Below, in pieces: positions 6,456 to 7,700 of a stretch of DNA of 27,498 bases. Made by a program: the position numbers and the translations under genes. The notes under the pieces were generated by a model. The model saw only the letters and a program-made list of their open reading frames with translations, was not told the origin of the DNA and did not search any database. Positions within the stretch are counted from its first letter, which is position 1, and each line of letters opens with the position of its first letter. The DNA is from a virus, in IMG/VR virus record IMGVR_UViG_3300005617_000227, positions 1 to 27,498 of that record; one strand, written 5' to 3'.

Positions 6456-7700
6456 ATGCTCAACTCTGCCAAGAACGCGAACACCGACGACAAACCGCTC
6501 CCCAAGGAGTTCAACTCCGACGCGCTGCTCGACCTCGCGAAACAGTTCCGCAAGATCCAGAAGGCCAAGGCGAATGTCGCCTGGCTCGAGGCCGAGTGGG
6601 CCGCGAAGGCGCGCGCGGCGTGCACGAGCGACGCGCATTTCCTGAAGTGGTGCGAGTACGTGCTCGGCCAGGCGTCCTCGGCGGCGCTCGAGTTCCTCTG
6701 CATGGCCAAGACGTTCAAGCACGTGGGTTCGGCGGACGACTACCAGACCCTCGGCGTCGGCAAGTCGATCGCCAAGCTCGCCGACCTGACCCCGCGCGAG
6801 CAGGCCCGGACGATCTCCGAGGCTAAGGCGACCAAGCGCACGATCCGGCAGGTGTTCAACGACCGCGAGCGCGCGAGCCGCCCGAGTGCCGAGAGCGACG
6901 GCAAGGTCGAGTCGTACTCTAACGCCACGGTCTCGAAAGAGGCCGCGCTCAAGACCGACGCCGCGCTCCTCGCCGACTACGTGCTGGACCTCAAGGGCGT
7001 GCCGTCGCACATCCGCGCCATCGCCCAGCGGCTGGCGGGGCCGGGCCCAGGCGTGAGCGACCCCACCCCGGCCCAGTCGACCGTCGCCGGCCTGTACAAG
7101 CAGTTCCGCCGTTCGCGGCAGCACGACTTCGCGGAGACCACCTCGGGGTTGTACCCGCAGCTGCGCGCTCGCGCGCGCCAGCTCACCCGCTGCGACGTCG
7201 AGGCCCAAGACGTCGTGCAGGAGACCTACCTGCGCGCGCTCGAGCACTGGGACAAGTTCTTCTGCCCCGAGGGCCGCCGCCCCACCGACGTCGCCGGCGC
7301 GTGGATGTGGAGAATACTGACCAACGTGTTCTTGAGCGCGCGGCGCGCCGAGCTCGCGCGGCCCGTCGTGTACGGAGTCGACCCCGGTGATGAGTTCGGC
7401 GTGCTCGACGTCGGCCACGACCCCGCGCCGATCGACTACATCGCGCGCGGCGTCGAGGGCGCGTTCACCAGCCTGGGGGCGAACGCGCGCGCGGTGGTCG
7501 TCCGCGCGGACGTCCTCGAGATGCCGCACGAGGACATCGCCGCCGCGCTCGACGTGCCAGTCGGGACCGTCAAGTCCCGCCTGTCGCGCGCTCGCCGCGC
7601 GATGGCCGAGCAGCTCGGCGACTGCCCCGAGTCGCGGTCCCGGACCCGCCGAGACCCACCGCGAGACCCACCGCAACCCCGCAGAACGGAGACTCCGTGA
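6456..7700 (+). CDS. ECF-type RNA polymerase sigma factor with an extra N-terminal domain
   Basis: This 414-residue protein is chosen to start at ATG 6456, two bases after the upstream stop, with GGAAG upstream. The C-terminal half is an ECF sigma-70 factor. Region 2 lies at about residues 228-300 (LYPQLRARARQLTR, DVVQETYLRALEHWDKF, AWMWRILTNVFLSARR). Region 4 lies at about 338-390 (LEMPHEDIAAALDVPVGTVKSRLSRARRAM). The N-terminal ~215 residues are not part of ECF factors. They are helical, with a segment (FLKWCEYVLG ... LGVGKSIAKLADLTPREQARTI ... TIRQVF) reminiscent of DUF3102- or ParB-like helical domains. The C-terminal tail is Pro/Arg-rich. It would redirect host RNA polymerase, possibly to the tail operon. 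ECF factors are normally about 170-200 residues. Confidence 0.85.
   Translation: MLNSAKNANTDDKPLPKEFNSDALLDLAKQFRKIQKAKANVAWLEAEWAAKARAACTSDAHFLKWCEYVLGQASSAALEFLCMAKTFKHVGSADDYQTLGVGKSIAKLADLTPREQARTISEAKATKRTIRQVFNDRERASRPSAESDGKVESYSNATVSKEAALKTDAALLADYVLDLKGVPSHIRAIAQRLAGPGPGVSDPTPAQSTVAGLYKQFRRSRQHDFAETTSGLYPQLRARARQLTRCDVEAQDVVQETYLRALEHWDKFFCPEGRRPTDVAGAWMWRILTNVFLSARRAELARPVVYGVDPGDEFGVLDVGHDPAPIDYIARGVEGAFTSLGANARAVVVRADVLEMPHEDIAAALDVPVGTVKSRLSRARRAMAEQLGDCPESRSRTRRDPPRDPPQPRRTETP

Follow-up and report, generated by a model that had tools for sequence, protein, structure and literature searches.

A phage ECF-type sigma factor with a lineage-specific N-terminal extension

The plus-strand open reading frame at 6456..7700 of the window (the whole stretch of 27,498 nt analysed here) encodes a protein that joins an ECF-type sigma core to an N-terminal module of ~218 residues. 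The gene stands beside an endolysin gene, and among related phages the sigma core is conserved in position while the N-terminal module varies. We give an even chance to the reading in which this phage sigma factor redirects host RNA polymerase to phage promoters and carries a lineage-specific accessory module, most likely regulating it in cis; that it switches promoters, which genes it would serve and that its N-terminus regulates it are what we infer. The gene and its parts are arranged as follows, all on the plus strand:

6442..6447 (+): Shine-Dalgarno-like AGGAAG, recognised by sequence, 8 nt ahead of the ATG at 6456
6456..7700 (+): ECF sigma factor with an N-terminal extension of ~218 residues (414 aa)
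6501..6890 (+): N-terminal domain, residues ~16–145, predicted all-helical at low confidence, without a family match
6891..7109 (+): residues 146–218, a hydrophilic linker, a short helical segment (~160–193) and a Gly/Pro/Ser/Thr-rich linker (AGPGPGVSDPTPAQST)
7152..7349 (+): sigma-70 region 2, residues 233–298 (PF04542), with the core-binding motif AQDVVQETYLRAL
7473..7604 (+): sigma-70 region 4 type 2, residues 340–383 (PF08281), with the helix-turn-helix EDIAAALDVPVGTVKSRLSRAR

The source contig, taken from IMG/VR, is 27.5 kb long and incomplete. It carries sheath, tape measure and baseplate genes and is thus of phage origin, so that the sigma gene is phage-encoded, as the original prediction had it. 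The same prediction described one chain of about twice the normal size, and this also holds: the 414-residue frame is uninterrupted in the window, ends in TGA and was called as a single gene by a simple gene finder. A codon-usage scan trained on the other genes of the window was clearly positive from 6460 to ~7640, with no other plus-strand frame positive, and the GC3 values of 0.95 (N part) and 0.91 (C part) resemble those of other phage genes. The N-terminal half is real coding sequence and shares one frame with the C-terminal half. Given one coding frame and a single gene call, no hidden frameshift separates the halves in this genome; such a frameshift, or an internal start, in related genomes had been named in the original prediction as fatal to a fusion. 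A GTG at residue 199 (nt ~7050) is a candidate internal start, preceded by an AGG that is weak and too near. Directly 5′ of the gene, an ORF at 6112–6453 (+) with repeated (W)RAAN.EKA units ends 2 nt before the ATG; its codon score is poor and it has no Pfam match.

Residues 220–389 constitute the ECF-type sigma factor. Region 2 scored 41.2 bits with PF04542 (cut-off 24), region 4 scored 45.6 bits with PF08281 (cut-off 25.7), and the sigma70-ECF superfamily model TIGR02937 gave 48.8 against a cut-off of 42.9. The two regions lie ~41 residues apart with no region-3 match, as they should in ECF factors. The best single model was the SigE family of Streptomyces, which scored below its own cut-off, and the best structural relatives by sequence are the solved mycobacterial ECF factors SigH and SigE. 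PHROG 1740 ("RNA polymerase sigma factor") also matches at 6.5e-22; the likeness is limited to the sigma core, covering positions 51–217 of the 567 in the profile, and the N-terminal half lies outside it. Judged by eye, neither the core-binding motif AQDVVQETYLRAL nor the helix-turn-helix HEDIAAALDVPVGTVKSRLSRARR is disrupted. The assignment of the C-terminal half to phage-encoded ECF-type sigma factors is therefore well supported by its sequence, in agreement with the original prediction.

Two linkers (~138–160 and ~194–215, the second rich in Gly, Pro, Ser and Thr) part the N-terminal domain from the sigma core; the helical segment between them, at ~160–193, is taken from the secondary structure of a low-confidence model. 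Residues 1–218 have no match in Pfam, PHROGs, NCBIfam, PADLOC (no defence match) or the PDB. Nor does Pfam find sigma regions 1.1, 1.2 or 3 within residues 1–215; a known sigma region there was the other outcome that would have told against a fusion. Relatives were sought in IMG/VR, GTDB genomes, phage and plasmid records and related phage contigs, and none was found. These searches comprised two scans of viral contigs and one of genome contigs, tblastn (E up to 10) against phages and plasmids, and phmmer against six-frame translations of 158 sequences plus pieces of G003, G027 and MW202816; since the scans mainly reach close relatives, the absence holds within that reach and does not prove uniqueness. 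AlphaFold run without an alignment returned an all-helical model of low confidence (mean pLDDT 42 for the whole protein, 56 for residues 16–150), and Foldseek searches gave only uninformative matches (E > 0.8). The extension shows no membrane segment (maximum 19-residue hydropathy 1.01).

The original prediction had likened the N-terminal half to DUF3102 or ParB, and neither label was supported. Pfam gave no DUF3102 (PF11300) hit at E 10. An HMM built from 17 members (proteins fetched from Bacillota) scored 0.5 bits, a value exceeded by many of 2000 shuffles, and hhalign put the probability at 0.4%. ParB/KorB matches were absent from the Pfam and PHROG searches. In pairwise comparisons with 18 DUF3102 members the highest Z was 3.8 (p ~0.009, uncorrected for the 18 tests), and one DUF3102 subtype shares a weak collinear pattern with the N-terminal half (W..W.E, A..F..LA, LG..K). 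This possible resemblance is only a lead and is non-significant. It would fit a domain, HTH or DUF3102-like, that binds DNA and tethers the sigma factor to phage promoters or to replicating phage DNA, thus uniting activator and sigma factor in one chain. The predicted helical content and the flexible linker before the sigma core would suit such a role, whereas the N-terminal half has no significant profile match, the fold search with the low-confidence model was empty, and DUF3102 itself has no established function. We regard tethering as the main rival to cis control, possible yet rather unlikely.

Relatives of the phage were found via its tail-sheath protein. The closest, G001 and G002 (sheath identity 72 and 68%), are fragmentary and lack the sigma region, which is present in two large myophages, G003 (77.5 kb) and G027 (88 kb). 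In both, a homologous endolysin is followed by an ECF sigma factor as the next gene called with confidence, and opposite-strand genes, including an exonuclease-like one, meet the sigma gene head-on. The neighbours that define this slot in the window are:

579..2243 (+): metallophosphoesterase/exonuclease-like protein, Cys-rich at its N-terminus, with syntenic counterparts in G003 and G027
4218..4790 (+): deoxynucleoside monophosphate kinase-like protein, shared with G027 (53%)
4787..5758 (+): endolysin (catalytic-like N part and peptidoglycan-binding end), the positional marker common to G003 and G027
7697..8029 (+): 110-aa protein overlapping the sigma stop, in the position of an anti-sigma gene

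G027 and the window agree in gene order (metallophosphoesterase, dNMP kinase, endolysin, sigma), and the sigma factor of G027 is of ordinary ECF length (227–240 aa), with no extension. The G003 sigma gene (L017:10871-12256, minus strand) is immediately preceded by the endolysin, which shares its strand, and the metallophosphoesterase lies another two genes upstream. The product of the sigma gene has 461 aa from an ATG, or 484 from an upstream TTG, and a N-terminal half of ~240–265 residues unrelated to that of the window. The sigma factor is thus kept in these relatives, while the two-domain order is not: G027 lacks the N-terminal part and G003 has another one. As a related phage does without the extension at the same slot, the extension is dispensable for sigma function as such. 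A region-2 match was found in 5 of 50 further sheath-related contigs (frames of 227–302 residues, G027 among the five). Together with the known ECF-type factors phiEco32 gp36 and SU10 CDS32 (PMC4281155, PMC3594737), this bears on the earlier statement that ECF factors are uncommon in phages. G012–G015, which share the endolysin, have no region-4 match above the cut-off. The sigma factor was absent from G005 (77 kb) and G007 (74 kb), both of the sheath lineage and searched whole, and in the complete relative MW202816 no sigma factor is annotated and nothing resembles the sigma core of the window; the gene is therefore not universal in the lineage. Scans of viral contigs with the ECF core returned G003, G027 and two distant ECFs, neither of the latter with a comparable N-terminal extension. 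Matches to fecal "Bacteriophage sp." records were set aside: they are short, plain ECFs, and the contigs that carry them are unverified and probably bacterial.

The unfused gene in the same slot of G027, the different N-terminal half in G003 and the lack of relatives of the window's N-terminal half in all collections searched could also mean that a normal phage ECF gene became fused, by chance or recently, to an unrelated gene upstream of it, leaving the N-terminal half with a role of its own or with none. We think this unlikely, as the codon usage and GC3 of the N part are those of normal phage coding sequence, and a long extension in two of the three lineage phages with the gene exceeds one accident. 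It is comparably improbable, though of interest, that the slot beside the endolysin is a fixed site for ECF factors in one family of large myophages at which N-terminal modules are swapped between lineages, the module here being an on-board activator or targeting domain that determines the place or time of host polymerase use and makes the factor modular and self-regulated. The core is 28–39% identical to bacterial ECFs and 33–34% to the other phage copies, and a tree of the sigma cores leaves a single ancestry of the three phage factors unsettled, so that common descent rests on gene order and not on sequence. That the core is equally close to bacterial and phage factors, and that phage sigma factors altering host dormancy are known (PMC9429907), would fit a host ECF acquired as cargo (a moron) to reprogramme host genes such as those for stress or dormancy rather than phage promoters, which we doubt most of all because three phages use the same genomic slot and the gene sits inside a block of phage genes, coupled to its neighbours.

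The favoured reading, a phage sigma factor with a cis-acting module, draws on known systems. phiEco32 gp36 and SU10 CDS32 are phage ECF-type sigma factors through which host RNA polymerase reaches the middle and late promoters of the phage (PMC4281155, PMC3594737). The sigma factor of phage 7-11 is predicted to act like gp36 (PMC4331800). The window protein shares with gp36 and CDS32 a phage-encoded ECF-type core; those proteins come from C3 podophages, are ~26 kDa and lack a long N-terminal extension, and their role has experimental support, whereas that of the present factor is predicted from sequence. Promoter redirection of the gp36 kind would be the most economical reading here. By this route the C-terminal sigma2–sigma4 core would bind host core RNA polymerase and guide it to a particular group of promoters in the phage, probably those of middle or late genes. 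The lineage-specific module of ~218 residues, attached in front of the core via flexible linkers, would most likely exert cis control, holding the sigma factor silent, or binding a partner of phage or host origin, up to the proper stage, and would thereby take the place of a separate anti-sigma factor. No anti-sigma family match was found in the genes next to the sigma gene, including the 7697..8029 protein, whose GTG start at 7697 overlaps the sigma stop (GTGA).

Cis regulation is proposed because bacterial ECF extensions at either terminus, where studied, regulate in place of anti-sigma factors (PMC8999054, PMC8103513), and we consider it the most likely role for this extension; a 2021 review notes that regulation by N-terminal ECF extensions lacks mechanistic information beyond predictions (PMC8103513). 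A long extension ahead of the ECF core, as in the window protein, is also found in the former groups ECF87–89 (Planctomycetes) and in ECF36 with DUF2275 (PMC8103513, PMC8999054). These are bacterial factors, and no sequence link to the window protein was found; the ECF36 extension has membrane helices and DUF2275, whereas the present one has neither (the Pfam search for DUF2275 was negative). In ECF41, ECF42 and ECF56 a fused domain regulates instead of an anti-sigma factor, as shown for some of them (PMC3426412, PMC8999054) and as proposed here, but their extensions are C-terminal and of the SnoaL or TPR type, whereas that of the window protein is N-terminal and of another family. Phage ECF factors and ECFs with extensions are already known; the natural comparison between G027 (no extension) and G003 (a different extension) adds interest. 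The function of such extensions could be studied cleanly in this phage protein, which is small and soluble, carries a separable module ahead of its ECF core and has a natural relative without that module. Such work would also bear on the timing of gene expression in large phages of GC-rich hosts, achieved via a borrowed host RNA polymerase.

The plus-strand block of the window (thymidylate synthase, kinase, endolysin, sigma) faces a separate minus-strand structural (late) block in convergent orientation. This resembles the two-block layout of 7-11 and phiEco32, where the change from one gene class to another is made by phage sigma factors (PMC4331800). Within the 1.4 kb of gaps in the window, no repeated promoter motif rose above shuffles; the start of the late operon lies outside the window. 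The G027 genome has a bipartite, ECF-like motif, AACCT-N-CGTCAA, with 4 intergenic copies against 0.1 expected. It was rejected as a promoter of the phage sigma factor, as its other strand reads TTGACG/A-N16-17-(T/C)AGGTT and several copies stand just before a minus-strand ATG; the sites are better read as putative host promoters of the sigma-70 type (actinobacterial-like), which suggests an actinobacterial-type host. No promoter recognised by the phage sigma factor was thus identified in the window gaps or among the intergenic motifs of G027. Minus-strand sites of G027 (L160/L161) lie, for example, at contig positions 3710, 4933, 6752, 29076 and 29445, some looking leaderless, and the sites overlap a near-palindrome, CCTGCGTACGCAGG, perhaps an operator.

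Several other genes of the window deserve mention. One of them sits just after the sigma gene, away from the structural genes:

8026..10497 (+): 823-aa protein with a Cys-rich N-terminus and a portal-protein-like segment of ~65 aa near the C-terminus

The segment matches PHROG 146 (1.6e-6) and is 43% identical over 58 residues to a portal-like protein of G027. At the end of the structural block, 10675-10995 (-) is a small Cys-rich lipoprotein-like ORF (LFLTACLC) without a family match, possibly lysis-related. Two overlapping frames after the tail tube gene (24317-25011, minus strand) have a T7C slippery stretch, TTTTTTTC, near 24576, which is conserved at the corresponding position of L002 and L003; by their sequence they look like the typical -1 frameshift of a tail assembly chaperone. 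Finally, 13389-17981 (-) encodes a tail-fibre- or spike-like protein of 1530 aa with repeated modules (FT..H.L.TGDGP...TGTLP.GL...T.Y), which also occur inside tail sheath proteins of the lineage.
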